Notes: a model not told the origin generated them from the sequence alone. A DNA stretch of 34,809 nucleotides from Candidatus Altarchaeales archaeon WOR_SM1_SCG (GCA_001723845.1 MCBE01000022.1:1-34809); one strand, 5' to 3'. Shown: positions 7,435 through 34,809, numbered from the stretch's first letter. Program-made: numbers and translations.

Positions 7435-9432
7435 TCATTTCCGCTTAAACGCAATAATTGTTATAATTATTATGATGACAACCAGAACACCAATAATGAT
7501 GTATAAATATTTGCCGTTATCACCGGTCGGTTGCTCGGGAGGAATCTCTTTAGAATCATCCGGTTCTCCCGGTTCTTCAACAACAGGTAGTTCTTTTACA
7601 TATATCTTCCCTGATTTTTCGCCCGTGAATGATTCACCAACTTTTGAATTCTCCGCAGTCATCTGCAATGTGTAACCCAGGTGTTCAATATTCGGATCGG
7701 TTAGTTCAATATTGCAGTCCAGGAGTATTTTATCGTATCTCTTAAGAACAGGTTTGTCTCTCATGGCAATTCCAATATTTGAGTCCTCTATGCCCCGGCA
7801 GTTAGCAATCGCACCGCCGTTTGTTATCCTGAGTGAGACATGAACATTTTTTATTTCATCACCCAGGTTTGTTACGGCAGCAGAGCAGTGAGCAATTTTC
7901 CTGTTTTTATCAAAATACGCCCTATCGCACTGTAAATTTGTATCAATATTCGGAACCTCAACCTCAACCGGTTTCTCAACACCATTGATATTTAAAATCC
8001 CGTGATAAGACCTGTACGCTGAAATATCTGACGGAACTTCAAGATAAAGATATTTATTTAATTCCGATGTTGAAACCCCAAACGGCTCTACTTCCTGGAA
8101 CCAATCTGCGACTTCTCCTGTAACATGAATTTCAACATTATTTAATTCGCCTTTATCTGTGCTGAGTGTGAGTTTCTTGTAGCCGCTGTAACCGGGGGGA
8201 ATGAACATTCGTATCTTTTCAATATCTTCTATTTTATTTTCGTCAACTTTTACCAGAAGTGTGATTCTCTGGCATTTATTGTCTTTGCAGTAATTGGTTG
8301 AGCATTCATTGTCAGAGGAGCAGGATTCGTCAAGTTGTTTTTTAGCCAGGCATTTATGGTCTGAGCAGTATTTAGAGGGGTCGCAAGATTCATCGCTTGT
8401 GCAGTAGCCCCGCGGTCTGCAAATTTCATCAACACAGTTGCTGCTTAAACACTCTTCATTTTCCGAGCAGGAATTGTCTTCTTTCTTTTTATCGCGGCAG
8501 ATTTTATCAGAGCCGCAGAAGCCGTCGGAATCGCAATCTGAATGTACAAAGCATGATCTTGATGGAGTTGGCGGGTGTTCGCCGAAGTCGTTGATTGATT
8601 TTGATGGTGAACTATCTATCCAAATGTTGGGGTCTGTTTCGCTGTAAAGAGTCATTGGTTTTTTGGTTGGGGTGGTATAAGCTTCAATATAGAGCGTGAT
8701 ATCTGGGTGTCCAAAATAGACATCTATATATAAATTATGTGTTCCGGGTGTCAAATGTCTGGTGATATATTTTACACCTCTACTACTTTCTTCTTTATCA
8801 AACACCTCAACACCATCAATATAAAGTGGTGCGAAGATACATGAAGGGCATTCAAAATTTATTCTCCCATCGCGTACAGAACAATCAGGGAGAACCAACT
8901 TTAGTTTTATATACTCGCATCCTTTATTATATTTTTCAAATCTGATCTTCTTGAACATCCCTGCCTGCTGCATGTAGTACACAGCAGAATCTTTCACCTG
9001 CTCCTCTCTCAACGCAGAAATACTATTCTCATCAAGTTTGGCAATCTGAATCAATTCTCTCTCCAGAACATCTTTCTGTGCTAAACTGAACACTTTCATA
9101 CTCCCAACCTTAACAACACCATTACTGTAAACATATCCCCAGTCCCCTGTCGAGAACTGAAACGCAATTCTTTCATCACTCTGCTCTTTAAGTTCATAAT
9201 TCAGTTTCGTGCAGAAGTCATTTAACTCAATCGTTTTTTCAATGTTTACAGAAACGCCTGAATTAAATTCCGAGGCATTCGCTGTTCCTATGCAGAAACT
9301 AAAAATTAATAAAATAATTAATCCTTTTGCTGCGGTTTTGTTTAAATTTTTAATTAATTTTTTTGATTCATTGCTTTCCTTTTGATTTATGTTTCCCTTT
9401 TTGTTTTTAATTTTCGTTTTCATTTTTTGCAT
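7435..9432 (-). CDS. Membrane-anchored Cys-rich surface protein (paralog 1)
   Basis: Signal-like LIILLIFSFCIGTANA, Cys-rich CxSDCDSDGFCGS... module, C-terminal TM YLYIIIGVLVVIIIIITIIAFKRK. Confidence 0.85.
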   Translation of the reverse strand: MQKMKTKIKNKKGNINQKESNESKKLIKNLNKTAAKGLIILLIFSFCIGTANASEFNSGVSVNIEKTIELNDFCTKLNYELKEQSDERIAFQFSTGDWGYVYSNGVVKVGSMKVFSLAQKDVLERELIQIAKLDENSISALREEQVKDSAVYYMQQAGMFKKIRFEKYNKGCEYIKLKLVLPDCSVRDGRINFECPSCIFAPLYIDGVEVFDKEESSRGVKYITRHLTPGTHNLYIDVYFGHPDITLYIEAYTTPTKKPMTLYSETDPNIWIDSSPSKSINDFGEHPPTPSRSCFVHSDCDSDGFCGSDKICRDKKKEDNSCSENEECLSSNCVDEICRPRGYCTSDESCDPSKYCSDHKCLAKKQLDESCSSDNECSTNYCKDNKCQRITLLVKVDENKIEDIEKIRMFIPPGYSGYKKLTLSTDKGELNNVEIHVTGEVADWFQEVEPFGVSTSELNKYLYLEVPSDISAYRSYHGILNINGVEKPVEVEVPNIDTNLQCDRAYFDKNRKIAHCSAAVTNLGDEIKNVHVSLRITNGGAIANCRGIEDSNIGIAMRDKPVLKRYDKILLDCNIELTDPNIEHLGYTLQMTAENSKVGESFTGEKSGKIYVKELPVVEEPGEPDDSKEIPPEQPTGDNGKYLYIIIGVLVVIIIIITIIAFKRK

Positions 9433-9585
9433 CTCTTTTTTGTTTTAAATTTTGATTTATTTTACATTACTATCTACATTGCCATTTCTCTTTTAAATTC
9501 TTTTAAACATAGTAAAAATCAACTATTGTTGTTCACTTATTCATTTGTATTCTCCAAAAAAAGGATAATTATAATGTGTTTTTAT

Positions 9586-11571
9586 TCATTTCCCTATAAA
9601 TAATAAAATTATTATGATAACCAATAGGACGCCAATAATGATATACAGAAGGTACCCTCTACTTCCCTTTGGTTGTTTGGAAGGACTTTCTCTGGAATCC
9701 TGTGACTCCTCTGGTTCTTCAACTACAGGAATGTCTTTTATATATATCTTCCCTGATTTTTCACCGGTGAATGATTCACCAACCTTTGAATTTTCCGCAG
9801 TCATCTGTAAACTGTAATCCAGTTGCTGAATATTGGGGTCGGTTAATTCAATATTGCATTTCAAGAGGATTTTATCATACTGCTTTAATTCTCCTTTGTT
9901 CAGCATCGCAATCCCGATGTTTGAGTCCTCTATTCCATCGCATTGGGCAATCACCCCGCCGCTTGTTATTCTCATGGAAATATGTAAATTATTCAATGTA
10001 TCAGCACCAAGATTCACAACACCAGCAGAACACCGAGCTAATTTTTTATTTTTATCAAAATATGCCCTGTCACATTGTAAATTTGTGTCAATATTCGGGA
10101 CTTCAACTTCAATTGGTTTCTCAACACCATTAATCTTTAAAATCCCATGATAAGACCTGTACGATGAAATCTTCGTTGGGACCTCAAGATAAAGATATTT
10201 ATCCATTTCTGCCGTTGAAATTCTGAACGGCTCTACTTCCTGAAACCAATCTGCGACCTCTCCTGAAACATGGATCTCAACATTATTTACTTCGCCTTTA
10301 TCTGTGATGAGTGTAAGTTTCTTGTAGCCGCTGTATCCGGGAGGAATGAACATCCGTATCTTTTCAATATCTTCAATTTTATTTCCGTCAACTTTTACAA
10401 TGAGGGTGATTCTCTGGCATTTACTGTCTTTGCAGTAGTTGGTTAAACATTCATTATCAGTGGAGCAGGATTCGTCATTTTGTTTTTTAGGAAGGCATTT
10501 GTGGTCTGAACAGTATCTGGGGGAGTCGCAATCTGTGTCGGTTTTGCAGTAGCCCGGCGGTCTGCAAACTCCATCAACACAGTTGCTGCTTAAACATTCT
10601 TCATTTCCCAAACAGGGATTGTCTTCTTTCTTTTTGTCGCGGCAGATTTTATCTGAACCGCAGAAGCCGTCGGAATCACAGTTGGAATGTACAAAGCAGG
10701 ATTTTGGAGGGGTTGGTGGATGTTCATTAAAGTCGTAAATTGATTTGCTTGCATCAGTGCCATCTGTCCAGAAATTAGAATCTGTCTCGCTGTAAAGTGT
10801 CATTGATTTTTCACATGGGTTAGTGTAAGCTTCTATGTAGATGGTAAACCCATGGTTTCCCTGTACACACCCCGTTGCAAAATATATGTCGTGTACTCCT
10901 TGTGTCAAACATTTAGTGATATATTCTACTCCATTAATGCCCCTAAACTCACAATTTCCCTGATCAATACTAATTAGTCCTCGGATGGACTCATGGACTT
11001 TAAATTTTGCTTTCCCTTCCTTTATAGAACAGTCAGGAACCATTAACTTTAGATTTAGATAAGAACAGTCCTTAATACTCCCTTTAAATTTAATCCTCTT
11101 AAACACATTCGCTTGTTGTGTATAATACACAGCAGAATCTCTCACCTGCTCCTCTCTCCATTCTGAAATGCCTCTTTCATTAATATTCGCAATCTGCATA
11201 ACTTCCCTCTCCAGTACATCTTTCTGTGCCAAACTGAACCCTTTCGTACTCCCAACCTTAACAACTCCATTCCTGTAAACATACCCCCAGTCCCCTGTCG
11301 GGAATTGAAACGCAATTCTCTCATCGCTCTGCTCTTTAAGTTCATAATTCAGTTTCGTGCAGAAATCATTCAACTCAATGGTTTTTTCAAGGTTTACGGA
11401 AACGCCTGAATTGAAACTTGCGGCATCCGCTGCTCCGATGCAGGAACTAAAAATTAATAAAATAATTAATGCTTTCGCTGCGGCTTCGTTTAAATTTTCA
11501 ATTAATTTTTTTGCTTCATTGCTTTTGTTCCGGTTTTCGTTTCCTTTTTGGTTTTTAATTTTGGTTTTCAT
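9586..11571 (-). CDS. Membrane-anchored Cys-rich surface protein (paralog 2, tandem duplicate)
   Basis: Same architecture and extensive identity to the 7435-9432 product. Confidence 0.85.
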   Translation of the reverse strand: MKTKIKNQKGNENRNKSNEAKKLIENLNEAAAKALIILLIFSSCIGAADAASFNSGVSVNLEKTIELNDFCTKLNYELKEQSDERIAFQFPTGDWGYVYRNGVVKVGSTKGFSLAQKDVLEREVMQIANINERGISEWREEQVRDSAVYYTQQANVFKRIKFKGSIKDCSYLNLKLMVPDCSIKEGKAKFKVHESIRGLISIDQGNCEFRGINGVEYITKCLTQGVHDIYFATGCVQGNHGFTIYIEAYTNPCEKSMTLYSETDSNFWTDGTDASKSIYDFNEHPPTPPKSCFVHSNCDSDGFCGSDKICRDKKKEDNPCLGNEECLSSNCVDGVCRPPGYCKTDTDCDSPRYCSDHKCLPKKQNDESCSTDNECLTNYCKDSKCQRITLIVKVDGNKIEDIEKIRMFIPPGYSGYKKLTLITDKGEVNNVEIHVSGEVADWFQEVEPFRISTAEMDKYLYLEVPTKISSYRSYHGILKINGVEKPIEVEVPNIDTNLQCDRAYFDKNKKLARCSAGVVNLGADTLNNLHISMRITSGGVIAQCDGIEDSNIGIAMLNKGELKQYDKILLKCNIELTDPNIQQLDYSLQMTAENSKVGESFTGEKSGKIYIKDIPVVEEPEESQDSRESPSKQPKGSRGYLLYIIIGVLLVIIIILLFIGK

Positions 11572-15978: not shown

Positions 15979-16260
15979 TTGAAAATGGCTGAACTAATTA
16001 TTGAAGTTCCAAATGAATTAGAAGAACGAATAAAATCCTTTCCCAGTGTAAATTGGATGGATGTGGAAAGAAAGGCGATAGAATCCAAATTGTTTGAATT
16101 GGAATTAAAACAATCAGCAGATATGAGGCGCATTCTCGTTGAGGCGATCTCTTCAAAGAGTGAATTATCAGAAGAGGAAGCCGATAAGTTTGCAATTGAA
16201 CTCGGCAGGAAGATTAAAAAGGGCAGGTACAAGCAGCTTAAATCAATGGGGGTGGTTTGA
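15979..16260 (+). CDS. Putative VapB-like antitoxin (ATG probably at 15985)
   Basis: 93 aa, directly abuts PIN-domain ORF. Confidence 0.75.
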   Translation: MKMAELIIEVPNELEERIKSFPSVNWMDVERKAIESKLFELELKQSADMRRILVEAISSKSELSEEEADKFAIELGRKIKKGRYKQLKSMGVV

Positions 16261-16677
16261 GTGAAAGTTGTAGTTGATGCTAACATTATCATATCGCTTT
16301 TGATAGCAAAGGGTTCCAAACACAAACTGTTTTTCTCCGGTGAGCTGGATATAATATCTCCTGACATAATCTTATTTGAGATAGGCAAACACTGGGATGA
16401 GATATCTGAAAAAAGCAGGTTATCCAAATGGGAATTAAACCTTGAATTTTCCGCTGTTAGAGAACAGATGATGGTGTTTTCTGTTGAGAAATCTAAATGG
16501 ATCAAGGAAGGCGTAAAGATTTCCCCGGACCCTGATGATGCCGAATACTTCGCACTGGCACTGAAATTCAATTGCCCTATCTGGTCAGAGGACAAACCGT
16601 TGAAACAGCAGCAATCCAAGGTGGAAGTAATGGATACAAGGAAACTGCTGGAAAAACTTGGTTTAATCCCTGTGTGA
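16261..16677 (+). CDS. PIN-domain toxin (VapC-like)
   Basis: 138 aa; VVVDANIIISLLIA, DPDDAEYFALALKFNCPIWSEDKPL acidic motifs. Confidence 0.85.
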   Translation: MKVVVDANIIISLLIAKGSKHKLFFSGELDIISPDIILFEIGKHWDEISEKSRLSKWELNLEFSAVREQMMVFSVEKSKWIKEGVKISPDPDDAEYFALALKFNCPIWSEDKPLKQQQSKVEVMDTRKLLEKLGLIPV

Positions 16678-18906: not shown

Positions 18907-19150
18907 ATTCCTCCTCACTATCGGGCTCGGTATTCCGGGCGATGACGAAGACATCATAGAGAACCTGACTAAAAATAAGATTTTGAGCCGAGAAACCAAA
19001 GAAAAATTGAAAGCAATGAAGGGCTTTAGAAACATACCGGTTCACAGGTACGGCAGGATAGACGACAACATTATATATGAAATATTAGAGGAGAACCTGC
19101 CGGATTTTTATGCATTTATAGAAGAAATAGAAAATTTTTTAGATAATTGA
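18899..19150 (+). pseudogene. N-terminally truncated HepT-like (DUF86) toxin remnant
   Basis: GLGIPGDDEDIIENLTKNKILSRETKEKLKAMKGFRNIPVHRYGRIDD has the HepT R-x4-H core; only TTG start, inside thrS; N-terminal helices absent. Confidence 0.7.
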
Positions 19151-21868
19151 TGTTGTACCGTGAGTATTTCTCATCAGCCCGCGAGCCCTCTCAACACTAT
19201 CCGCATCCTCCGCCCCCTTATCCTCTCTCACCCTCACAAGCCGCGGGAACCTCAAAGCGTACCCGGATTCATAAGTCGGCGACTTCTGGATTTCCTCGTA
19301 AGCCACTTCAACAACAACCTTCGGCTTTAGTTTTACTTCCTTCCCGATTTCTTCTGTAATCAGCGGCTTGAGGTTTTTGGTCATTTCCTTGAACTGGTCA
19401 TCCGTTAGTCCGGTTGCCATTCTCCCGATTTTCAGGATTTTACCGGTATCCTCATCCCTTGCCCCCAGCAGGAACGATGCGAGCCAGTGCGCCCGTCTTC
19501 CCTCACCCCATGTCGCACCGACTATCACAAGGTCAAGTGTTTCCATCACCGGCTTTATTTTATACATATATCCCACTCTTGAGCCGGGCTGGTATGGTGC
19601 GTCAAGATTTTTAACCATGACACCTTCATGTCCCATGGATAAAGAATATTTATAAAATTTATTTGCATCACCCGGGTTGTCCGTAATCATCTGCTCCGCT
19701 ATCCTGAATTTCCCCGTGGGATTTATAATTTCCTCTAAAATTTTTCTCCTGTTTTTGAATTTCTCATTAATTAACGATTTCCCGTTTAGATAAACAATAT
19801 CAAATAAATTAATTTCAACAGGTATTTTTTCAACCATCTCACGAATGTCGTATTTGCGCTTTATCCGCCTGGAGAGATCCTGAAACGGGCGCGGCAATCT
19901 TCCCTCATCACCGCCGCGTATTGCAACCGCTTCCCCTTCAACAATCGCCGAATCTGCCTTTATATTTTCTCTTGCCGATTTTACAATTTCAGGGAACTGG
20001 TTTGTGACATTCTCAAGCCGCCTTGTGAATAATTTAATTTCATCATTGTTCTTGTGTATCTGGCAGTTATGTAAACAAGCCAATGTTGTGCAATAACTCT
20101 CATCACCCTCTACTTGCAAATTATAAACTTTTGATCTCGGATCAATACCTCGTGGATGTTTCCTTCTAATCTCTTCTTTTTTAAATATTTTTACAATCAA
20201 TTTATTATCTTCAATCCTTGATGCGCCTGGTTTACCTTTTGTCAATATCAATTTAAAATATGTCTTATTATTTATTCTCAACTTTTTAAGAGCCATTATA
20301 ATTCCAAACTTTAATCCGAGTAATTGCACAAAAGCCGCCAGATTGCCCTCTTTTGTTGTAATAGAAGTTCTTTTAAAACTGTCCACGCATCCATCTGCAT
20401 CTACCCATCCATTTAGAAACTCAGTAAAGTCATTTTTTGAAATATTCCAGAACCACCGGGGAAGATTCTTTCCCTTCCAACCTCTTTTTTCATGTCTGAA
20501 ATTTTTGGAAAGCCACTTTAAAAATGGCTTATCTGTCCAATACATATAAATTGCTCCGTTATGTGGTGATTTACTGATTTTGGTTATTCCAAAAGTTTTT
20601 TTAATTATGTTTCCATAAAAATTACACATATCTTCTCCTGTTTTTTCGTTAAACATAATTCCCACTCTCCATGTTTTATTATGTGTGTTAGAATAACCAT
20701 CTCCAATCCAATATCCTAAAAACCTAAAGAATTTTTTATTTAATTTAAATGTTTTCACATAATTGGCGTGTGTTTTTAATACAACCTCTTTTGGAATTTT
20801 CTCTTTTATTTTGAAATCAGGAATTGGAAATGCAAGTTCATCCTTTTTGTCTATGTCTTCTATGTTCTTCCATTTAAATTTTTCAGAAGAATAAACTAAT
20901 ACGGGATGTTTTTCTGTAATTTTAAATTCGTTTCCAAGCCAGGTTTGAACTTTAAAAACACATTCGTTTTTATCAATCGTTCTTTTATTTTTAGCAACTA
21001 CTTTTTTAAAATTTCCTTTATGTGTCAATACATAGTCCCCGACTTTGACATCTTTTATGGGCATTGTCCCTTTGTTTTTTATATATATTGGCGTAAGCCC
21101 CGAAACACAGCGAAATCCATCGTATTTTATTTCAAAAGCACACTCTTCAAAGTCCTCAACCGCTTCTTCAACCGAGTCAACTTTCTGTGAAAGCATGACC
21201 CTCATGGGAGTTCCTGTCTCAAGATTAATATTTTTAATCCCCTCGCTTCCATGTAATTTCGCAATTTTTGCAACCTTCCCGAAATCCGAAATCAACGAAT
21301 ACCCGCGCTCAATTAGTTTTGCATCAACCCCGTAAGCAGAAGCAATCGCATCCCTGATAATTCCCTCGCCCACTCCGAGCCGCAGTTCCTCAAGAATCAA
21401 ACGAATGATATATTTCGCTTCGGAGGGTGTTGCAAACGACAATAACTCTTCAATGTATTTCAGTTTCTTTTTCGTGGATTCTTTACCTGAAAATTCCGAA
21501 ATTTTATTTAAATTATCATAGACCTTATCAAGTGTTAGTTCCTGCGTGAAAAGGGCGCTCTGGGTTTTATTTTTCAATAATTTTTCCGCTGCAAGCCCGG
21601 TATCACCGGTCTCGCGGATTGTATCTGAAATTTTCTTTTCGCTGGCTCCCGAAACATCCGCGATGGCTTTAATCATTAATTTATTTGCAATTCCCAGTTC
21701 TTTATCGCTCCACTGCGGGAATGCCTTTCCCTGGAGGAATAGAACAACTGCCGCAAGATAATCTCCTGGAACATCTTTCAGGAATTCGGAAACGATGTCT
21801 GTCATTTCAAGGCGTTTTGTTGTCTTCTCAAGTTCGCAATAGACGGAAACTAATTTGCTGTATTTCAT
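19139..21868 (-). CDS. lig: ATP-dependent DNA ligase containing an intein
   Basis: Exteins: FEIKYDGFR / CQIHKNNDEIKLFTRRLENVT..., EGVMVKNLDAPYQPGSR; 909 aa precursor. Confidence 0.95.
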   Translation of the reverse strand: MKYSKLVSVYCELEKTTKRLEMTDIVSEFLKDVPGDYLAAVVLFLQGKAFPQWSDKELGIANKLMIKAIADVSGASEKKISDTIRETGDTGLAAEKLLKNKTQSALFTQELTLDKVYDNLNKISEFSGKESTKKKLKYIEELLSFATPSEAKYIIRLILEELRLGVGEGIIRDAIASAYGVDAKLIERGYSLISDFGKVAKIAKLHGSEGIKNINLETGTPMRVMLSQKVDSVEEAVEDFEECAFEIKYDGFRCVSGLTPIYIKNKGTMPIKDVKVGDYVLTHKGNFKKVVAKNKRTIDKNECVFKVQTWLGNEFKITEKHPVLVYSSEKFKWKNIEDIDKKDELAFPIPDFKIKEKIPKEVVLKTHANYVKTFKLNKKFFRFLGYWIGDGYSNTHNKTWRVGIMFNEKTGEDMCNFYGNIIKKTFGITKISKSPHNGAIYMYWTDKPFLKWLSKNFRHEKRGWKGKNLPRWFWNISKNDFTEFLNGWVDADGCVDSFKRTSITTKEGNLAAFVQLLGLKFGIIMALKKLRINNKTYFKLILTKGKPGASRIEDNKLIVKIFKKEEIRRKHPRGIDPRSKVYNLQVEGDESYCTTLACLHNCQIHKNNDEIKLFTRRLENVTNQFPEIVKSARENIKADSAIVEGEAVAIRGGDEGRLPRPFQDLSRRIKRKYDIREMVEKIPVEINLFDIVYLNGKSLINEKFKNRRKILEEIINPTGKFRIAEQMITDNPGDANKFYKYSLSMGHEGVMVKNLDAPYQPGSRVGYMYKIKPVMETLDLVIVGATWGEGRRAHWLASFLLGARDEDTGKILKIGRMATGLTDDQFKEMTKNLKPLITEEIGKEVKLKPKVVVEVAYEEIQKSPTYESGYALRFPRLVRVREDKGAEDADSVERARGLMRNTHGTTSII
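20066..21109 (-). mobile_element. Intein (348 aa) with LAGLIDADG homing endonuclease, inserted after KYDGFR of DNA ligase motif I
   Basis: Starts CVSGLTPIYI, TEKHP block, endonuclease motifs FLGYWIGDGY and LNGWVDADG, ends LACLHN|C; in-frame boundaries verified at codon level. Confidence 0.93.
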
Positions 21869-23832: not shown

Positions 23833-24434
23833 TCACTAAATTTCTTCTCAATCACTTCCCCATAAGGTTCAACTTCGCCGAAAACCTGTCCCGTGAAACT
23901 GTAAACTTTAACTCTTTTACCAAACCACGCATCAGGCGAGAGTCCTGCTTTTACGCAGGTCTGCGATAAAAATTCCGGCTCGTTCCATTTCCATTCAACA
24001 GGAACCTGCGGGAGTAAAAGTCCTTTAAAAAAGCCGCTTTCAACAATCAAGCCGTCTCTTCCGACCTTGATTTTTTCAAGATATTTAACCGGGTCATCCA
24101 CTTCAACAAGTTCCGGTTTTGTAAGCACCGAGACCTCAACAATTAAATTTTTTAATTCATTTTTTTCTACGGGGGAAAAGCGAGGGTCTTTTAGTGCCGC
24201 AGAAATTGCAGCGCCCCTGACTGCATCAATTAAAGGCATCACCGGCTCCGTATATCCGATGCACCCCCTGAGATTATGGTCCGGGAATGTATGCAAACTC
24301 ACGAAGACGCCTCTCTTTTTACTTAAAATATCTCTTAAATTTTCAGGCGGCACTGCTCCCGTTTCACTAAAATACGACTCAATTACCTCTCTTGTAAATT
24401 TAACCAGTGATTTTCCCTGTTGTAGCGACAGCAT
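23829..24434 (-). CDS. AMMECR1 domain protein
   Basis: 201 aa; LRGCIGYTEPVMPLIDAVRGAAISAALKDPRFSPV. Confidence 0.95.
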   Translation of the reverse strand: MLSLQQGKSLVKFTREVIESYFSETGAVPPENLRDILSKKRGVFVSLHTFPDHNLRGCIGYTEPVMPLIDAVRGAAISAALKDPRFSPVEKNELKNLIVEVSVLTKPELVEVDDPVKYLEKIKVGRDGLIVESGFFKGLLLPQVPVEWKWNEPEFLSQTCVKAGLSPDAWFGKRVKVYSFTGQVFGEVEPYGEVIEKKFSD

Positions 24435-24596
24435 TTTTTATTTTTAATAATTGGTATTCTATAAATAAATTTTAAATCAAAATTACGATTTATACTGCTT
24501 TCAATTCAATTCTTTTATTAATTTTTAATTATAATTTTATGAATAACGATTTTATTAATTTTATTAATTTTAAAATTTAGAATTTAAGGTGATAAC

Positions 24597-26693
24597 ATGA
24601 AAACACTGATAGTTACGGAGAAACCAAAGGTCGCGGAAAGGATTGCAAAATCGCTGGGAAAAAGCGTAAAAAAACAATTTAGAAATAAAGTACCGTATTA
24701 TGAAGTCGGGGAAAATATTGTAGCACCTGCTGTCGGGCACATCTACGGCTTAAAGGAAAAGAACGCAAAATGGACTTATCCTGTTTTTGACATTGAGTGG
24801 GTTCCTGCTTATGAGGTGAACGAGGGTTCTTCCTTTACAAAGGGCTACCTGAATAATTTAAAATTTCTCGCGAAAAAATGCGGTAAATTCATTAACGCGT
24901 GCGACTTTGATATTGAGGGAAGCGTAATCGGGTTTAATGCAATAAAATACGCATGCAATGTAGATCCTTTCGGTGAGAATGTTTACCGGATGAAATTTTC
25001 AACAATTACAAAGGATGCGATTATCAGGGCTTATGAAAATCTTGACCCGATTCAAAGGGAAATGGTTAATGCGGGACTTGCAAGACATACGCTTGACTGG
25101 TACTGGGGTATAAATCTTTCAAGGGCATTAACAACATCAATCAAAAAAGCAGGGAGGTATGTGACATTAAGTATAGGGAGAGTACAGGGTCCGGCGTTAA
25201 AAATTCTTGCCGGGCGCGAGAAGGAAATAAGGGCATTTGTTACGGAACCCTACTGGGAGATTGAGCAGATTGCAAAAGAAAATAAAAATAATAAAAAAAT
25301 TTCTTCACTTCACGAAAAAGGTAAATTCAAAGATGAAAAGGAAGCAAAAGAGGTTAAAGAAAAATGCGGTGATAAGACAACTGTTTCAAAAGTCGTGAAG
25401 AAAAAATTCAAACATGCCCCACCGCATCCGTTTGACCTCACAACCCTCCAGACAGAGGCGTACAAACAGCTGAAGGTTGACCCGAGAAAAACGCTGGAAA
25501 TTGCACAGGACCTCTATACCTCGGGATTTATAAGTTACCCCCGGACTTCATCACAGCAGCTTCCCGATGACATCAATTTCAGGGAAATTTTAACAAAATT
25601 AAGTAAAAACGAAAATTACGAACACTTATGCGAAATGCTGCTTTCAAAGGAAAAACTGGCTCCGAATAACGGGAAAAAGACGGATCCTGCGCATCCTGCA
25701 ATTCACCCGACGGGCGAGAAGGCAAAAGGACTTTCCGCCGAGAATAAAAAAATTTATGACCTTATTGTTCACAGGTTTCTTGCGGCATTCGGCGACTTTG
25801 CAACAAGAGAGACGGTAAAAATCCTGTTTGATAATAATTCGGAAATTTTTGTTGCGAAAGGCACAAGAACAACTGATCCGGGATGGCACATACTCTACGG
25901 GAAATACGCGAAATTTGAAGAAGAGGAACTTCCGAAATTAGAGGAAGGCGAGGTTCTTGATGTAATTGAAATTAAAATTCATGCAAAAGAAACAAAGCCT
26001 CCGAAGCGATACACCCCCGCCTCAATAATTCGCGAAATGGAGAAAAACAACCTCGGGACAAAAGCCACAAGATCGCAGATAATTGATATTTTATTTAAGA
26101 GAAATTATGTTGACGGCAGGAGTTTAGAAGTCACGCAGCTCGGGCTTGATGTTGTTGAAACCATGGATAAATTCTGCCCCGAGGTGATGAGCATTGATTT
26201 AACAAGGAAATTTGAAGACGAGATGAAAAAAATCAGCGTAAAGGACTACACATCCGAAAAGGTACTCGTGGAAGGCAGGGAAATGGTTACTAAAATTTCT
26301 GCCGAATTCAAAGAAAACGAATTAAAAATCGGCAAGGCGCTTGCAGAATCGGTCTCGGAAACATCTAAAAAACAGAATGTTGTCGGGAAATGCAAGGACT
26401 GCGGCGGCGACCTGATGCTCAGGCAGGGCAAATACGGGAATTTCATCGGGTGCGGCAGTTACCCTAAATGTAAATTTACAATGTCTCTCCCGCAGGGGAT
26501 GATAAAAAAAGAAGGGGAATGCGAAGAATGCGGTAATGCAATGGTCGTAAGGATTATTAAAGGAAAGCGTCCCTGGAAATTCTGTATAAATCCCAATTGC
26601 GGGACAAGAAAGGAAGCAGAGGAGAAGAGAAAAGCCTTTAAGGAAAAGTATTACAAGGGGGATGAGAAAGAAAAAAATAAAAAAGATATGTAA
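24597..26693 (+). CDS. topA: DNA topoisomerase I (archaeal type IA) with C-terminal zinc fingers
   Basis: 698 aa; MKTLIVTEKPKVAERIA, DFDIEGS, YTSGFISYPRTSSQ, CKDCGGDLMLRQGKYGNFIGC. Confidence 0.95.
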   Translation: MKTLIVTEKPKVAERIAKSLGKSVKKQFRNKVPYYEVGENIVAPAVGHIYGLKEKNAKWTYPVFDIEWVPAYEVNEGSSFTKGYLNNLKFLAKKCGKFINACDFDIEGSVIGFNAIKYACNVDPFGENVYRMKFSTITKDAIIRAYENLDPIQREMVNAGLARHTLDWYWGINLSRALTTSIKKAGRYVTLSIGRVQGPALKILAGREKEIRAFVTEPYWEIEQIAKENKNNKKISSLHEKGKFKDEKEAKEVKEKCGDKTTVSKVVKKKFKHAPPHPFDLTTLQTEAYKQLKVDPRKTLEIAQDLYTSGFISYPRTSSQQLPDDINFREILTKLSKNENYEHLCEMLLSKEKLAPNNGKKTDPAHPAIHPTGEKAKGLSAENKKIYDLIVHRFLAAFGDFATRETVKILFDNNSEIFVAKGTRTTDPGWHILYGKYAKFEEEELPKLEEGEVLDVIEIKIHAKETKPPKRYTPASIIREMEKNNLGTKATRSQIIDILFKRNYVDGRSLEVTQLGLDVVETMDKFCPEVMSIDLTRKFEDEMKKISVKDYTSEKVLVEGREMVTKISAEFKENELKIGKALAESVSETSKKQNVVGKCKDCGGDLMLRQGKYGNFIGCGSYPKCKFTMSLPQGMIKKEGECEECGNAMVVRIIKGKRPWKFCINPNCGTRKEAEEKRKAFKEKYYKGDEKEKNKKDM

Positions 26694-26731
26694 CAACCGG
26701 GGAGAAAAAATAATTAAAAATTTTGATTGAA

Positions 26732-26893
26732 TTAAAATTTAAATACATAATCATCTATGATTGCAACATGCTCTCCGGAATGCTCTTTTGCCAGTTCCCC
26801 AATATGCTCGCCAAACCAGCGGTCATCCTTCAATGTTTGCCTGTCAAGTTCCTTCAATTCCCTGTCTGAAATTTTTGTTTTTTCAGGTTTCAT
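26732..26893 (-). pseudogene. Truncated DUF5678-like small ORF (53 aa), below the ORF-track length cutoff
   Basis: Minus-strand translation MKPEKTKISDRELKELDRQTLKDDRWFGEHIGELAKEHSGEHVAIIDDYVFKF* matches the N-terminal half of the 29923-30189 product. Confidence 0.8.
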
Positions 26894-26941
26894 CTCTTTA
26901 TTATTTTTGTTTTAATAAATTTAATTTTTAATAAATATATT

Positions 26942-28171
26942 ATGAAAGCAGAGAATCTATTAGGGGTGTTTGAATTTTTTGAAATAAAGCCGCTTGAAGA
27001 GGAAGATGAAATTAAGAACTATTATGAAAAAAGAGAAAGCCCGATAAAGAGTCTTTCTAAAGCCATTCTTTTAAGCAAAAAGCCCGCCAAGTTTTTATTC
27101 AGCGGGCATAGAGGGTCAGGGAAATCAACTGAATTAAACATTCTTTCAGGGAAGGTCAAGGATAAGTATTTTGTGGTTAACTTCTCGGTTTTTGACTTAC
27201 TGAGCATACACGACATCAAAGACATCGACCTTTTACTCACCATCGGTTCCGAGATATATAAAAAAGCATACGATGAGGGTATTAAACTGGATAAGAAAAT
27301 TGTTAACGACCTCTCCGCGTGGATGGAGGATGTGACAAAAATTAGTATAAAAGAACAGAAGGTTTCTTTGGGAGGGGAAGCCGCCCTTAACTGGCTTTTA
27401 ATAAAACTCGGCTCGGAGATGCAGACCGGGACAACAAAAAAAGAGGAATTAAGGGGGACGATAAAGCAGAGACTTGGGGATTTAATGGAAAAAATAAACT
27501 CATTGATATACGAGGTTGAGAATAAGCTGGCAAAAAAAGAGGGAAAGAAAATTCTTGTTATAATTGACGACCTTGATAAAATAGACCTTGATGAGGCGGA
27601 GGAGTTGTTTTATAAGCACAGCAATTCGCTGACGCTTCCTGCATGCAGTATTGTTTACACGATACCCATCTCTTTAGTTCACTCAAGCAAGTACACGCAG
27701 GTGAAGTTGAGTTTCGCTAATTCGTATGTGCTTCCAAACATAAGGTTGAACAAAAAAGACGGCGGAAAGGACGAAGCCGGGAGAGAAATATTAAGGAAAG
27801 TTGCAGGGAAAAGAATGGATTTAAACCTTATCTCAGGAGAAGCGCTGGAAAAAGCAATTGACGGGTGCGGCGGGGACATGTTCCAGTTTATCTACATAAT
27901 AAGGTTCGCAAGCATCGAAGCCGACAACAAAAACAGGAGCCGGATAGAGAAAGATGATGTTTCAGCAATACTTGTGAACCTGAGAAATGACTTTGACAGA
28001 ATTCTAAAGAAAGATGATTATCCAATCCTTAAAGAAATCCACAAGACAAAGGATGCCGTTGACGGGGAGCGGCTTCTGGAATTATTTCACAGTTTAAGTG
28101 TTTTGGAGTATTTAAATGCAGAAAGATGGTGCGATATTCATCCCTTGATTATTCCATTACTGGACAAATAG
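26942..28171 (+). CDS. P-loop (AAA/STAND-like) ATPase
   Basis: 409 aa; FLFSGHRGSGKSTELNIL Walker A, ILVIIDDLDKIDL Walker B. Confidence 0.85.
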   Translation: MKAENLLGVFEFFEIKPLEEEDEIKNYYEKRESPIKSLSKAILLSKKPAKFLFSGHRGSGKSTELNILSGKVKDKYFVVNFSVFDLLSIHDIKDIDLLLTIGSEIYKKAYDEGIKLDKKIVNDLSAWMEDVTKISIKEQKVSLGGEAALNWLLIKLGSEMQTGTTKKEELRGTIKQRLGDLMEKINSLIYEVENKLAKKEGKKILVIIDDLDKIDLDEAEELFYKHSNSLTLPACSIVYTIPISLVHSSKYTQVKLSFANSYVLPNIRLNKKDGGKDEAGREILRKVAGKRMDLNLISGEALEKAIDGCGGDMFQFIYIIRFASIEADNKNRSRIEKDDVSAILVNLRNDFDRILKKDDYPILKEIHKTKDAVDGERLLELFHSLSVLEYLNAERWCDIHPLIIPLLDK

Positions 28172-29475
28172 ACAGGTTGAACCTGGTGCTCAGGAGAGCA
28201 GAAAACGGAGTGATAGTTCTTTTAGAATGCAACAGTTTGCCCTTGAGAGAGGAAGTGATTAACCGGCTAAAGGAGGAACTGGATGAAAATTTCAAATTCC
28301 TTTCAATAAACATTGACGAAAAGAATAAAAATCTTCCGGGTATAGTTCAGGATTATTCCGGTTCAGGGAGAATTGATAAAAAAACGGTTGTTTTCGTGCA
28401 TAACATTGATGATGCGATGCCTGAAGTCATAGGATACTTAAACTGGGGAAGAGAGGTCTTTCTTGATTTAAAAGTAAAAATCATTATCCTCTGCCCGACA
28501 TTTGTCGCAGATGAAATAATAAAAAACGCACCTGATTTCTACAGGTTCTCCCACAGGATAACAATCAAGGAAAAAACACAGACCAGAGGAGAGGTTATTC
28601 CCTCGTTTATCTCGGATGTGAAATACAAGGATTTAAATGAATTAAACGAGAGAATCAATATACAGGAGCATCTGCTGAAGAAAGCAACAGAGGATTATAA
28701 AATCGCTGATTTATCGTTCAATTTAGGCAGGTTATATTTTAAAAAAAATGAATATAAAAATTCTTTAAAATTCTTTAATGATTGTTTAAAAATTTACGAG
28801 AAAATCGGTGGTAAAAAGCAAATTGCAGCAACATACAACGAAATGGGTATAATCCATTATTCACAGGGCAACTACAGTGAAGCCCTGAAATGGTACAAAA
28901 AAAGCATGGAAATTTCAGAAAAGATTGGCAATATCACAATTCTTACAACAACATATAACAACATTGGTGAGGTTCGTAGAGTTCAGGGCAACTACAGTGA
29001 AGCCCTGGAGTGGTACAACAAAAGCATGGAAATTAAAGAAAAAATCGGCGACACAGCAGGACTTGTCGCAACATATAACAATATTGGTTTAATTCATAAT
29101 TCGCAGGGCAATTATCCTGAAGCTCTGGAATGGTACAACAAAGGCATGGAAATCATGGAAAAAATCGGCGACACAGCAGGACTTGCCGCAACATACAACA
29201 ACATCGGTTCAATTCATGACGCTCAGGGCAACTACACTGGAGCCCTAAAATGGTACAATAAAAGCATAGAAATTTCTGATAAATTAGGAATGCTTCATTA
29301 CTCTGCAATGGGATATTCAAACATGGGCATTGCTTGTCTTGAGAATAAAGATATTAATTCCGCTCTTAATTATTTCACTAAAAGCCGCGACCTCTTCAGG
29401 AAGTTAGGTCTGGATAAAGATGCAGACAAAGCCGAAAAGACAATCTCGGATTTAACAACCGGAAACAAAACATGA
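28126..29475 (+). CDS. TPR protein with N-terminal ATPase-like (YLNWGRE) domain; overlaps the upstream ATPase gene by 46 bp
   Basis: VVFVHNIDDAMPEVIGYLNWGREVFLDL...NAPDFYRFSHRI followed by ~40-aa TPRs (AATYNNIGxIHxxQGNYxEALEWYNKSMEI). Confidence 0.85.
   Translation: MVRYSSLDYSITGQIDRLNLVLRRAENGVIVLLECNSLPLREEVINRLKEELDENFKFLSINIDEKNKNLPGIVQDYSGSGRIDKKTVVFVHNIDDAMPEVIGYLNWGREVFLDLKVKIIILCPTFVADEIIKNAPDFYRFSHRITIKEKTQTRGEVIPSFISDVKYKDLNELNERINIQEHLLKKATEDYKIADLSFNLGRLYFKKNEYKNSLKFFNDCLKIYEKIGGKKQIAATYNEMGIIHYSQGNYSEALKWYKKSMEISEKIGNITILTTTYNNIGEVRRVQGNYSEALEWYNKSMEIKEKIGDTAGLVATYNNIGLIHNSQGNYPEALEWYNKGMEIMEKIGDTAGLAATYNNIGSIHDAQGNYTGALKWYNKSIEISDKLGMLHYSAMGYSNMGIACLENKDINSALNYFTKSRDLFRKLGLDKDADKAEKTISDLTTGNKT
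28801..29280 (+). repeat. Four 120-bp TPR-encoding tandem repeats in the 28126 gene, related to the 32281-33240 array
   Basis: Repeated CAGGGCAACTACAGTGAAGCCCTGRARTGGTACAA... with 120-bp period. Confidence 0.85.
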
Positions 29476-29528
29476 TTGGAAATTCAAACAAAAATTTTAA
29501 TGGAATGAAAACTTTAAAATATGCGTAA

Positions 29529-29921
29529 TCAGCATACCGGGTTGAATCTCATTAATTTCTTTTTGTCGTTAAAGCAGATTTCAAATTTATCAAAGATTGT
29601 TTCCCTGCCCAGCAGGTTGAATGCCGTCCCGAGTTCGTCGGAGAATCCTATTTTCGCATCTCTTATGATCTTGCCCGCGATTATGGTTTCCACTTCATGA
29701 ATGTAAATTGTTATTTTATTCCCGTCGCCGATGGTAGGTGTTCTTTTTTCACCGGAAGTTATGTTAATCCCCAATTCTTCCCCTATACTTGATTTAAAAA
29801 CAGAGTAACTTGCACCGGTGTCAATAAGAGCAGCCACCGGAACAAGATTTGCATTTTCTCTCAAGATCACAGGGACTACGGAAAAATACTTGTCCCCGAT
29901 TTTTTTATACTTGAACTTCAT
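29529..29921 (-). CDS. Retropepsin-like aspartic protease
   Basis: 130 aa from MKFKYKKIGDKYF; PVAALIDTGASYSVF catalytic motif and FNLLGRETIFDKFEI. Confidence 0.85.
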   Translation of the reverse strand: MKFKYKKIGDKYFSVVPVILRENANLVPVAALIDTGASYSVFKSSIGEELGINITSGEKRTPTIGDGNKITIYIHEVETIIAGKIIRDAKIGFSDELGTAFNLLGRETIFDKFEICFNDKKKLMRFNPVC

Positions 29922-29922
29922 T

Positions 29923-30189
29923 TTAAACAAGCAGCATCTCATCTCCTTTTTTAGGTATATATGCAACCAGGGGTATTTTGCCGGGAAATGCTTCTTTTGC
30001 ATGATCATACGCTTCACCAAAATCCATTCCATAAGCCACCGCTTTTTCATCTATGATTGCAACATGCTCTCCTGCATGCTCTTTAGCCAATTCTTCAATA
30101 TGCTCGCCAAACCAGCGGTCATCCTTCAATGTTTGCCCATAAAGTTCCTTCAATTCCCTGTCTGAAATTTTTGTTTTCTTTGACTCCAT
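29923..30189 (-). CDS. DUF5678-like small protein
   Basis: 88 aa; HVAIIDEKAVAYGMDFGEAYDHAKEAFPGKIPLVAYIPKKGDEMLLV; immediately upstream of retropepsin gene on same strand. Confidence 0.75.
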   Translation of the reverse strand: MESKKTKISDRELKELYGQTLKDDRWFGEHIEELAKEHAGEHVAIIDEKAVAYGMDFGEAYDHAKEAFPGKIPLVAYIPKKGDEMLLV

Positions 30190-30267
30190 GTTATTAATTA
30201 ATTTTTAAATTAATAAATTATCAAAATTAATAATAAATTTTATCAAAATTAACCATGAAATAATATT

Positions 30268-33200
30268 GTGTATCTAGTAAATAACAAGATGGAAAATTCC
30301 GATGCTTTAAGGGTGCTTGTGGTTTCATCATCACCGCTTGTAGGTACTAAACCCCTTGATTTGGAAGAAGAGAGGAAACGACTGAGGGAAGCGTTTGGAA
30401 AAACAAAAGGAAATATTGAGGTTCATTACCTGCCGCATGCAACGGTTAAAAGTATCCAGGAAGCGCTGCTTGATGATTATGATGTTTTTCATTTCGTCGG
30501 ACTCAGCACGGAAAAAGGGGAACTTGTACTTGAACAGGAGGATGGAAACGACTACTGCCTTCCCGGTGATGATCTTGCAGGAATGCTGAAAGACAGCGGG
30601 ATAAAACTTGCCGTGCTTATCGCCTGTTATTCTTATTCTGATGCTGTTTCAGAGAAACTTGAAGGTAAAATCCCTTCAATTATCGGAGTTCGTAAAGACA
30701 AGCCACTGCCGGTTGTTGCAGGGTCTGCTTTTACTTCCATGTTTTACACTGCACTTGCTAAAGGTAAAAGCGTTAATCGTTCATTTGAGGATGGTAAAAC
30801 AGCAATTGATCTTATGAAAGGATTGAAAAAATATTCTCTTTCAAAGTTGTTTGTCTTAACTCAAAAAGAAGACAATACTTTGATCACAGGCGGCTCCGTT
30901 GGAAATTACACAGAAATTGAACCCGTTAAAACTCCCTGCAATTTACCCAAGGCGGATCGTTTTTTGGGCAGGATAGGTGAGATGGTGGCAATAAACAAAA
31001 ATCTTAAAGGTAAAGACAATCATATAATAAATCTGCACGGTGTTGCAGGAATAGGAAAAACAGCACTTGCTCTTGAGGCTGCACGCTGGCAGAAGGAAAG
31101 GGGATATTTCAAGGGGGGTGTTTTCTGGCATTCCGTGGAATTAAACCCGACACTTTCCGGCTTGCTTGAAAGCATAAGCAATGCATTTGAAATGGAGTCA
31201 ACACTAACAGAGAAAGAGGTTCTCGGCTATCTGAATAAGAATGATTGCCTTCTTGTTATTGATAATTTTCAAACCGTGCTTGATCTGGATGATAACGGAA
31301 ATGAACAGGCAGAGAAGGTTATTCAATTTTTACAGAATATTATTGATTCAACCCATGTTCTAATAACAAGCAGAAGAAACCATATAGGTTTACGAAACGA
31401 GAGGGATATTTATTTAGGAGAACTTCCAATTGAAATCGCAAAAAAACTTTTTATTGAAATTGTGGGAGAAAGGGGCTGGAAGCCCGGAAAGGAAGTGCCG
31501 GATTATAGAACAAACAATGACATAACAAACATCTGCGAACTTCTTGGATGCGTGCCTCTTGCTATTGTTCTTTCCGCGCCGCTTCTTCATACGGAACGCA
31601 TATCAGTGGGAGAACTTTATGAAAGATTGAAAAAAGAAGGTGAGATGCACAACTTACTTGACGAGGATAAGAGAGCTGTCCCAAGATTAAAGGATTACAA
31701 GGCATCGCTTCTTTTATCCTATTCAACTTTAAAAGATGATGCAAAATATGCTTTTGCTGTGATGTCAATCTTTTCGGGCTGGACAGGTGAGGAGGCGGTA
31801 AAAGATATTATTCCAAATATCACTGAAATTTTCGAAAAGGGAATGCACGATCTGGAAAGGAAAAATCTAATAAGATGCATAGGTGAAGGTAAAAGCAGGA
31901 GATGGCAGCATCTTCCTATAATCAAAAGTTTCGCTTTTGAAAAACTGAAGGAATATGATATTGATATTGAAACGCTGAAACTAAACCACGCAAACTACTA
32001 CCTGAAAATCGCCGAAAAATACGAACAAGGTAAGGAACACCTATGGAAATTCCTTGACCCCGAATGGGACAACATCACATCCGCTGCCGACTTCATCTCG
32101 GATAAATTCAACGAAAATTTCAATAATTTTAAAAATTTAAACGAATCTCAAATCAAGGAAAATAAAATCGTAAATTTAACCGGGGAATATGCACTGGCTC
32201 TCAAGCATGTTGCTTATTTCAGGCACCTTGGAAAACAGGGGGAGAGATGGCTTAAAACAGGGCTTGAAGCATTCAATTTAAAGGGAGATGAAAAAAGAAA
32301 GAGTTTAATGTGTAACCAGATTGGTTTAATTCATGATGCTCAAGGAGATTATCCTGAAGCCATTAAATGGTATAATAAAAGCATGGAAACTTCAGAAAAA
32401 ATTAGCGACACAGCAGGTATTGGAGCAATATATAATAATATTGCTTCAATTCATTATGCTCAAGGTAATTATCCTGAAGCACTGAAATGGTACAACAAGA
32501 GTTTAGAAATTAAAGAGAAAATCGGCGACACCGCGGGTCTTGCCACAACATACAACAATATTGGTTTAATTCATGATGCTCAAGGTAATTATCCTGAAGC
32601 ACTGAAATGGTACAACAAGAGTTTAGAAATTAAAGAGAAAATCGGCGACATAGCAGGGTTTGCCGCAACATACAACAACATCGCTGCAATTCATTATGCG
32701 CAGGGTAATTATTCTCTCGCCCTGAAATGGTACAATAAAAGCAGGGAAATCATGGAAAAAATCGGCAACACCGCAGGGCTTGCCGCAACATACAACAACA
32801 TAGGTGAAGTTCATAGAGTGCAGGGTAATTATCCTGATGCACTGAAATGGTTCAATAAAAGCGGGGAAATTTCAGAAAAAATCGGCAACACCGCGGGTCT
32901 TGCCGCAACATACAACAACATCGCTGCAATTCATTATGCACAAGGAGATTATCCCGAAGCCCTTAAATGGTACAATAAAAGCTGGGAAATCACAGAAAAA
33001 ATCGGCGACACCGCAGGGCTTGCCGCAACATACAACAACATAGGTGAAGTTCATAGAGTGCAGGGCAATTATCCTGAAGCCCTGAGATGGTACAAAAAAA
33101 GTGCAGAAATTAAAGAAAAGATAGAGGATTCCATAACCCTTTCAGATACTTATATTGATATAGGTAACATTCATTATGCCCAAGGTAATTATTCTGATGC

Positions 33201-33672
33201 GGAAAAATATTATTATAAAGGTTTTAGGATTTCAAAAGATATTGGTATCAAATTAAAGCAGGCAGAAATTGGTTATGTGCTTGGCAAAATTTTATTAAAA
33301 AGAAAGAATACCTACGATGCTTTAGAAGTTCTAAAAGAAGTGAAGGAGGCATTTAAAGAGATTCATAATAAAAAAGGGTTGGCAGATACTTGTCTTGAAT
33401 TGGGCAATATTTATCAGATGTTAAATGATTATGAAATGTCCCGGTGGTTATATAAAGATGCGTTACGATTTTATAAAGATCTTGGTGATTTGTCCGGAGA
33501 AGCTGTAACAGAAACAAATCTTGGAAGGTTGGAAATTAGAACAAACTTATTTTCTGATGCAGAAAAACATCTTAAAGATGCTTATAAATATTTTGTTAAT
33601 GCAAATGATTATAAAAAGCAGGACGCAATTCATCAATTATTACAGATAACACAACAAATATCAAAAGGTTAA
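30268..33672 (+). CDS. CHAT-like / NB-ARC (STAND NTPase) / TPR protein
   Basis: N-term DYDVFHFVGLST...LAVLIACYS (CHAT-like), GVAGIGKTALALEAA Walker A, DCLLVIDNFQ Walker B, GCVPLAI, then TPR array. ATG at 30289 is a likely alternative start to GTG 30268. Confidence 0.88.
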   Translation: MYLVNNKMENSDALRVLVVSSSPLVGTKPLDLEEERKRLREAFGKTKGNIEVHYLPHATVKSIQEALLDDYDVFHFVGLSTEKGELVLEQEDGNDYCLPGDDLAGMLKDSGIKLAVLIACYSYSDAVSEKLEGKIPSIIGVRKDKPLPVVAGSAFTSMFYTALAKGKSVNRSFEDGKTAIDLMKGLKKYSLSKLFVLTQKEDNTLITGGSVGNYTEIEPVKTPCNLPKADRFLGRIGEMVAINKNLKGKDNHIINLHGVAGIGKTALALEAARWQKERGYFKGGVFWHSVELNPTLSGLLESISNAFEMESTLTEKEVLGYLNKNDCLLVIDNFQTVLDLDDNGNEQAEKVIQFLQNIIDSTHVLITSRRNHIGLRNERDIYLGELPIEIAKKLFIEIVGERGWKPGKEVPDYRTNNDITNICELLGCVPLAIVLSAPLLHTERISVGELYERLKKEGEMHNLLDEDKRAVPRLKDYKASLLLSYSTLKDDAKYAFAVMSIFSGWTGEEAVKDIIPNITEIFEKGMHDLERKNLIRCIGEGKSRRWQHLPIIKSFAFEKLKEYDIDIETLKLNHANYYLKIAEKYEQGKEHLWKFLDPEWDNITSAADFISDKFNENFNNFKNLNESQIKENKIVNLTGEYALALKHVAYFRHLGKQGERWLKTGLEAFNLKGDEKRKSLMCNQIGLIHDAQGDYPEAIKWYNKSMETSEKISDTAGIGAIYNNIASIHYAQGNYPEALKWYNKSLEIKEKIGDTAGLATTYNNIGLIHDAQGNYPEALKWYNKSLEIKEKIGDIAGFAATYNNIAAIHYAQGNYSLALKWYNKSREIMEKIGNTAGLAATYNNIGEVHRVQGNYPDALKWFNKSGEISEKIGNTAGLAATYNNIAAIHYAQGDYPEALKWYNKSWEITEKIGDTAGLAATYNNIGEVHRVQGNYPEALRWYKKSAEIKEKIEDSITLSDTYIDIGNIHYAQGNYSDAEKYYYKGFRISKDIGIKLKQAEIGYVLGKILLKRKNTYDALEVLKEVKEAFKEIHNKKGLADTCLELGNIYQMLNDYEMSRWLYKDALRFYKDLGDLSGEAVTETNLGRLEIRTNLFSDAEKHLKDAYKYFVNANDYKKQDAIHQLLQITQQISKG
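32281..33240 (+). repeat. Eight 120-bp (40-aa) TPR-encoding tandem repeats in exact register
   Basis: Exact 120-bp period without indels; 75-bp identical stretch between 32456-32530 and 32576-32650. Confidence 0.92.
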
Positions 33673-33685
33673 TATCTCAATAAAA

Positions 33686-34809
33686 ATGAAAAACATAAGA
33701 AAATATGAAACAGGATTTGATAAATGGGAACTTAAAAGAAATCCCTTTGAAGTACTTCCTCCAAAAGATGAAGAAACGCGAAAGTGTGTATTCACCGGTA
33801 GAGAGAGGGAAATAAATGATATTTGCCGACTTGTAAAAACACCAAAAGGTATTTTTATCTGCGGGATGTTTGGTACGGGTAAAACAATGCTGGTTATGGA
33901 AGCTTTAAGTAGATTGGAAGAAGCAAACTTTACGAAAGTTTATGCAAGTTATGATGCACACGACGGATTCCGAAAAACAGTATTAAAAAATTTAGCAAAA
34001 ACTATATCACAAAGAGGTAATACATATGCAAAAAAAGTTTATGATGTCCTGACGATGGGTAATAAAATAGAGGAAACAGAAAAGGAAAGAGGTATGAATT
34101 TTGGAATAGCTGATGGTAAGATGAAATGGATAGAAAGAGCAACATTAAAAATTGAAAATCCCCGGGATTATATAGAAAAATTAATAGAAAGCGAAATAGA
34201 AGAAGGAAGAACAGTGGTTATTGCTGTGGATGATCTGGAAAGAAGAGCTGACATTGCAAGTATTCAGGAGATTATAGATGACACACGAGATATACTTCGA
34301 TTTGGTAGTTCATTAATACTTATGGGGCAACCGATTGGGGTTACGAGGGATATTCGTACATCCAGTGGATGTATTATGCATGAAATCCTGCTGGATACAC
34401 TTTCAGAAAAGGAATTAATAGAAATGATGATAAAATACCTTAATACAGCCCGCTCAGAAGATAAAGGAACTTATCCTTTTAGTAAGAATGTAGCTGAAAA
34501 GATCGCTAATAATATTGTTGAATGGAAATTAACACCAAGACTTTTTAATTTTGCTTGTTTTAATTTACTTGAAATTGCATCACACGATCTCTTGGATGAG
34601 ATTGATGATGGTGTGCTGGAAAAATACTGGCAAAAGATGGCAGATAAAATATTGGGTCAGATTGAAGAATTAGATAAAAAATATCTGGAGATTATTTATA
34701 AGGAAGGAGGATTTTCCGAGGATTCTGATAATGTAATCAAAATGATTGGAGGCGAATTTGCAGGATATGCTGAGGTTCGTGGAATACTTGCAAAATTGGC
34801 TCATGTAGA
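33686..34809 (+). CDS. AAA/P-loop ATPase (partial, runs off window edge; absent from ORF track)
   Basis: ATG at 33686, open to end: MKNIRKYETGFDKWELKRNPFEVLPPKDEETRKCVFTGREREINDICRLVKTPKGIFICGMFGTGKTMLVMEAL...EGRTVVIAVDDLERR. Confidence 0.88.
   Translation, partial: MKNIRKYETGFDKWELKRNPFEVLPPKDEETRKCVFTGREREINDICRLVKTPKGIFICGMFGTGKTMLVMEALSRLEEANFTKVYASYDAHDGFRKTVLKNLAKTISQRGNTYAKKVYDVLTMGNKIEETEKERGMNFGIADGKMKWIERATLKIENPRDYIEKLIESEIEEGRTVVIAVDDLERRADIASIQEIIDDTRDILRFGSSLILMGQPIGVTRDIRTSSGCIMHEILLDTLSEKELIEMMIKYLNTARSEDKGTYPFSKNVAEKIANNIVEWKLTPRLFNFACFNLLEIASHDLLDEIDDGVLEKYWQKMADKILGQIEELDKKYLEIIYKEGGFSEDSDNVIKMIGGEFAGYAEVRGILAKLAHV

Follow-up and report, generated by a model that had tools for sequence, protein, structure and literature searches.

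The gene of a small DUF5678-family protein and the gene of a retropepsin-like aspartic protease directly downstream of it form a real unit, which recurs in archaea, Chloroflexota, cyanobacteria, Omnitrophota, CPR and others. As judged from the sequences, the two genes are inherited together, are closely coupled and keep the active-site motif of the protease. We put at about 0.5 the probability that this pair is a toxin-antitoxin-like cassette, in which a retropepsin effector would be restrained by DUF5678. This reading is based on the order of the coupled genes, with the partner first, on fusions of DUF5678 to antitoxin-type domains, and on the dispersal of the pair as a diverged, multi-copy cassette.

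The pair was encountered in a window of 34,809 nucleotides (the whole stretch of DNA that was analysed), which is contig 22 of a 2.55-Mb archaeal genome in 300 contigs. The features of the region are as follows:

26732-26893, minus strand: DUF5678 remnant of 53 aa (match limited to profile positions 1-17 of 49, under the Pfam cut-off)
26751-26936: direct repeat, copy 1 (5' end of DUF5678 and divergent promoter region)
26942-28171, plus strand: KAP/STAND-like P-loop NTPase (KAP_NTPase, E = 3.6e-9), divergent from the DUF5678 remnant
28126-29475, plus strand: TPR protein gene (TPR_12, E = 3.7e-48), overlapping the NTPase gene by 46 bp
29529-29921, minus strand: retropepsin-like aspartic protease of 130 aa (PF13650/PF13975), gene 2 of the cassette
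29923-30189 (stop codon included), minus strand: DUF5678 gene, 88 aa (PF18929, E = 3.6e-19, full domain), gene 1 of the cassette
30047-30238: direct repeat, copy 2 (5' end of DUF5678 and divergent promoter region)
30268-33672, plus strand: CHAT-NB-ARC-TPR (STAND) gene (Pfam CHAT 25.8 bits, NB-ARC 40.1, TPR_12), divergent from the cassette

In the last of these genes, the CHAT, NB-ARC and TPR matches each exceeded the curated Pfam cut-offs, as did the matches of the intact DUF5678 gene and of the protease. Its start is more likely the ATG at 30289 than position 30268, because the former is aligned with the start of a paralog on contig C234; another paralog lies on contig C39. No Rfam RNA family was found within positions 24000-34809, and matches to sigma-70-type promoters were at chance level only. 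Elsewhere in the window, translation revealed an archaeal DNA ligase gene with an in-frame interruption (19139-21868, minus strand), apparently an intein with homing-endonuclease-like sequence, and a probable VapBC-type toxin-antitoxin pair (15979-16677, plus strand), composed of a 93-aa partner and a 138-aa PIN-like protein. Two tandem, similar secreted cysteine-rich proteins of about 660 aa are encoded at 7435-11571 (minus strand), with 79% DNA identity in part.

The initial annotation had described a retropepsin with DTGA and LLGRE motifs, co-directional with DUF5678 after a 1-bp gap. Both motifs and the gap were found, and the Pfam match (Asp_protease_2, E = 2.3e-7) and the AF2 model agreed with this description. 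Residues D34, G36 and G105 were invariant in 54 relatives, the catalytic Asp and Gly included. A Foldseek search with the AF2 model (pLDDT 97) matched retropepsins, with Rickettsia APRc as the best hit, followed by retroviral proteases, while the sequence profile placed Ddi1 closest among solved structures. With its D-[ST]-G active site and modelled single-domain fold, the protease belongs to the retropepsins (clan AA, family A2). The AF2 model of DUF5678 (pLDDT 90) consists of a long helix followed by a beta-beta-alpha-beta arrangement, for which no significant match was found in the PDB.

The genome to which the window belongs holds 13 DUF5678 matches above the Pfam cut-off and nine retropepsin matches. 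When the neighbourhoods were read, ten same-strand pairs were recognised, including two whose partners Pfam no longer detects because of their divergence; one more protease is cut by a contig edge. These copies mostly share about 15-40% identity among themselves. A scan of 84,980 species genomes with the protease alone, using as queries four proteases of the window subfamily, yielded 39 loci, a set biased to that subfamily; DUF5678 lay immediately upstream on the same strand in 32 of them, according to profiles built in this analysis. Altogether, 74 of 92 protease matches were paired with DUF5678, whereas two protease loci (L115 and L116) had no recognisable DUF5678 gene upstream, and some more distant proteases lacked it as well. 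The median gap between the two genes was -4 nt, with a 4-bp stop/start overlap in 23 of 70 measurable pairs, and the whole cassette measures about 0.64-0.82 kb. DUF5678 and protease distances were correlated (Mantel r = 0.64, P = 2e-4, n = 56 pairs), as expected for genes that diverge together. A fused DUF5678-protease protein was not seen at the cassette loci examined. In Chloroflexota, where 21 of 151 genomes carry DUF5678, several DUF5678 genes again precede a protease, here divergent to the point where E-values fall to about 1e-4; at one of these loci (L179, 227-1779, minus strand), two consecutive pairs with very divergent proteases were observed.

The presence of DUF5678 head-to-head with STAND/TPR genes twice in the window had been taken for a duplicated module. 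The layout is real. The first copy, however, is the 53-aa remnant, which has no protease beside it. It falls in the direct repeat, whose two copies are 84% identical over 192 columns and span the divergent promoter region and the first ~49 codons of DUF5678, and the similarity ends abruptly. A second full module inside the window is ruled out by this truncation, and we read positions 26732-26893 as the scar of a partial duplication.

Traces of a related kind surround many cassettes. Some pairs separate genes that are direct neighbours in relatives, so that the empty site can be recognised: ntpA and ntpB are 995 bp apart in the window genome, with the pair between them, compared to -11 to 69 bp in most relatives, and an Era-like GTPase gene is separated from DUF2073/OapB by 636 bp, compared to -4 to 119 bp in 27 relatives. 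The insert at ntpB is bordered by a duplicated stretch that comprises the leader of this gene and its first ~40 codons. More generally, 16 of 52 cassettes had direct repeats 40 bp or more in length on their two sides, compared to 24 of 492 positions chosen at random (P = 6e-8). When the repeats had to lie within 300 bp of both ends, 11 of 52 cassettes had them, but only 2 of 333 ordinary single genes or gene pairs with a comparable span (P = 6e-9). Where the repeats are closest to each other, they enclose 640-820 bp, barely more than the two genes, and no recombinase was found within them. The repeats are differing local sequences at each locus, 43-560 bp long (ntpB, mevalonate kinase, ComM-like and others). 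Such a pattern could arise if a chromosomal gene met a DNA molecule carrying the pair together with a fragment of that gene, and one crossover took place. Since recombination between the repeats could delete the pair, their persistence suggests that the insertion is recent or that loss is selected against. In another genome (G007), the same ntpA-ntpB slot is occupied by a 1041-bp insert holding what appears, as read from the sequence, to be an MNT-HEPN toxin-antitoxin pair (L199, 3338-4043), without flank duplication.

The divergent arrangement of pair and STAND gene, proposed as a recurring one in the initial annotation, does recur within the window genome. Three of the ten pairs are divergent from a STAND gene, namely in the window, on contig C234 (CHAT-STAND) and on contig C55 (SIR2-STAND), and on contig C256 a DUF4062-STAND gene lies 1.4 kb from the pair. 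This did not extend to other genomes: at 59 cassette loci (723 kb), no relative of the window-genome STAND genes was found beside the pair, and the sole matches, to TPR repeats alone, lay 1.3 and 3.7 kb away at two loci, in a search by single-sequence queries that strongly diverged STAND families may escape. The survey of neighbourhoods thus turned out largely against the proposal of a protease that as a rule goes together with NLR-like sensors, and a general STAND association is rejected outside the window genome; as far as neighbouring genes indicate, the link is a local feature of this genome. Neighbours of the pair elsewhere include carA, glmS, prefoldin and mevalonate kinase (names read from sequences, partly profile-tested), and in the window genome also rps15, TBP, metK and ATPase genes (names read from sequences). 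A third close CHAT-STAND paralog was seen on contig C39 (L142, 2-2728), with 77% identity to the window gene; its 5' end is at the contig edge, so that a cassette there would be invisible. On contig C234, a block made of a protease remnant, the CHAT-STAND gene and the DUF5678-protease pair sits between a pdxS-like gene and carB, and a duplicated carB start borders it. Duplicated cassette pieces therefore adjoin the STAND gene at both CHAT loci, which is explained more readily by insertion events that they have in common than by an obligatory functional link. A common insertion history may account for the cassette lying beside STAND genes in the window.

The alternative is that the pair belongs to a STAND (CHAT-NB-ARC-TPR) system for immunity or signalling, in which it might, for instance, be released or activated when the sensor fires. 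Pairs that diverge from a STAND gene (two CHAT-STAND paralogs, one SIR2-STAND gene) are significantly concentrated in the window genome (3 of 11 as tested, 10 of the 11 being full pairs, compared to 0 of 59 loci elsewhere, P = 0.003), and the parts diverged roughly in step between the window and C234 (59% identity for DUF5678, 52% for the protease, 47% for the CHAT-STAND protein over its length). We nevertheless regard this as the least probable of the explanations considered: it does not recur in other genomes, two of the three STAND-adjacent cases are sister copies, seven of the ten pairs in the window genome are not directly beside a STAND gene, and the cassette is absent both at a CHAT relative on contig C61 and at the paralog of the NTPase 26942-28171 on contig C11. 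Moreover, CHAT is itself a protease-type domain, so that a STAND system would not need an extra effector.

Two further explanations concern the pair alone. It might be a protease-repressor switch of the ImmA/ImmR type, in which DUF5678, sometimes with RHH, regulates its operon or the divergent gene and is cleaved by the retropepsin on a signal. The association of a protease with a small partner gene, the RHH-DUF5678 fusions and the promoter region that the divergent genes share, both in the window and on C234, would all be consistent with this, but 59 of 61 DUF5678 proteins matched DUF5678 alone in Pfam, that is, most have no DNA-binding domain, and the inconsistency of the neighbours means that there is no fixed regulated target. 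We consider such a switch unlikely. A housekeeping protease with an adaptor or activator, where DUF5678 presents substrates to the retropepsin or activates it, has analogies in the RimK-RimB interaction of Pseudomonas and in Ddi1, which handles ubiquitinated proteins. The proximity of the protease profile to Ddi1 points the same way, as does the observation (PMC11957791) that partner proteins tend to be involved where bacterial proteases of family A2 have been characterised. However, a housekeeping enzyme would not be expected to be distributed so patchily, to occur in many diverged copies per genome or to be accompanied by insertion scars, and the insertion of intact pairs into core operons would be left unexplained, so that this explanation seems to us more doubtful still than a switch.

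The toxin-antitoxin-like reading accommodates a small partner gene directly upstream of a coupled effector, as in type II toxin-antitoxin modules, and a patchy, mobile-like distribution: the pair occurs in 16 of 61 relatives, a few of which carry many copies, and empty sites and flank duplications are found. Under this reading, DUF5678 would bind the protease and hold it inactive by blocking dimerisation or the active site. Upon loss or titration of DUF5678, the protease would dimerise and cleave host proteins, and the resulting growth arrest would favour retention of the cassette. A conflict-type role, as suggested in the initial annotation, is plausible. Fusions to antitoxin-type domains (RHH, DUF433) are few, the great majority of DUF5678 proteins being devoid of them: RHH_1 is joined to DUF5678 at locus L183; DUF433 is joined to it at L105 (13271-14133), followed by DUF5615, a PIN-like toxin family; and at L164 an RHH-like region, without Pfam confirmation, accompanies DUF5678, with the protease next.

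Known toxin-antitoxin genes (HicBA, HigBA, DUF433/DUF5615, PIN) had looked strikingly frequent around the pairs by eye. When 101 small ORFs near the pairs were compared by Pfam with 101 far from them, no such enrichment was seen among the top 25 families listed (PIN, 3 near and 4 far; nucleotidyltransferase, 2 and 2). Solo DUF5678 genes are common, and a fusion of DUF5678 with a nucleotidyltransferase is kept in about ten Chloroflexota genomes (profile-confirmed in L166). In these proteins (L165-L167, L170, L172, L173, L175, L178, L180, L182), DUF5678 is N-terminal on a polyA-polymerase/CCA-type nucleotidyltransferase of ~550-590 aa. Together, solo genes and fusions imply that DUF5678 need not be an antitoxin.

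Searches of the open-access literature returned no relevant description of DUF5678 and nothing relevant on retropepsin toxin-antitoxin systems. The novelty of the pair as an undescribed cassette of putative toxin-antitoxin type is thus provisional. Although no description turned up in the literature searched, DUF5678 occurs widely and is coupled to a protease whose active-site motif is kept; if the pair proves to be a toxin-antitoxin system, it would represent a new effector class. Flank duplications and empty sites provide a testable record of its insertions. We advance only tentatively the wider proposal that toxin-antitoxin systems with a retropepsin form a class which needs no recombinase of its own to spread and whose scar is a direct duplication of 43-560 bp of adjoining DNA, as if the pair had been integrated through a crossover involving a fragment of the neighbouring gene. 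If this reading of the scars is true, the unexplained question of how small toxin-antitoxin modules enter chromosomes would become directly testable. The case also calls for caution, in that the neighbours of STAND genes in a single genome should not be read as one immune system.

Several known systems resemble the pair in part. CHAT-STAND and SIR2-STAND defence genes have their domains in the genes adjoining the cassette in the window genome, but no such association was seen at the cassette loci searched in other genomes. RimB (of RimABK in Pseudomonas), Rickettsia APRc and Ddi1 share the fold and the D-[ST]-G active site; they are, however, single genes in other contexts and do not form dispersed cassettes, and to our knowledge none has a DUF5678 partner. 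ImmA/IrrE-type protease-repressor pairs follow the same two-gene logic of a protease with a small partner, but ImmA is a zinc metalloprotease, unlike the retropepsin of the cassette, and DUF5678 is rarely joined to a DNA-binding domain. Among the candidate defence systems of PADLOC, the retropepsin-like component B models of PDC-M08 and PDC-M52 weakly matched 25 and 22 of the 54 proteases. DUF5678 had no convincing match to PADLOC models and matched none of the other components of these two systems, including component A; the two-component (A + B) combination was thus not found, and the partner differs.

Compared with type II toxin-antitoxin modules, the pair differs in its putative effector, a retropepsin, which was not found for any toxin-antitoxin family in the open-access literature searched. 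Nor did the queries used recover it from plasmids, phages or viral contigs. In a few proteins, the partner domain is fused to RHH or DUF433, as known from the RHH antitoxins and the DUF433/DUF5615 systems. What the pair has in common with these modules is the order of the genes, with a small partner first and a putative effector second that overlap or abut, and its dispersal in multiple copies between conserved genes.
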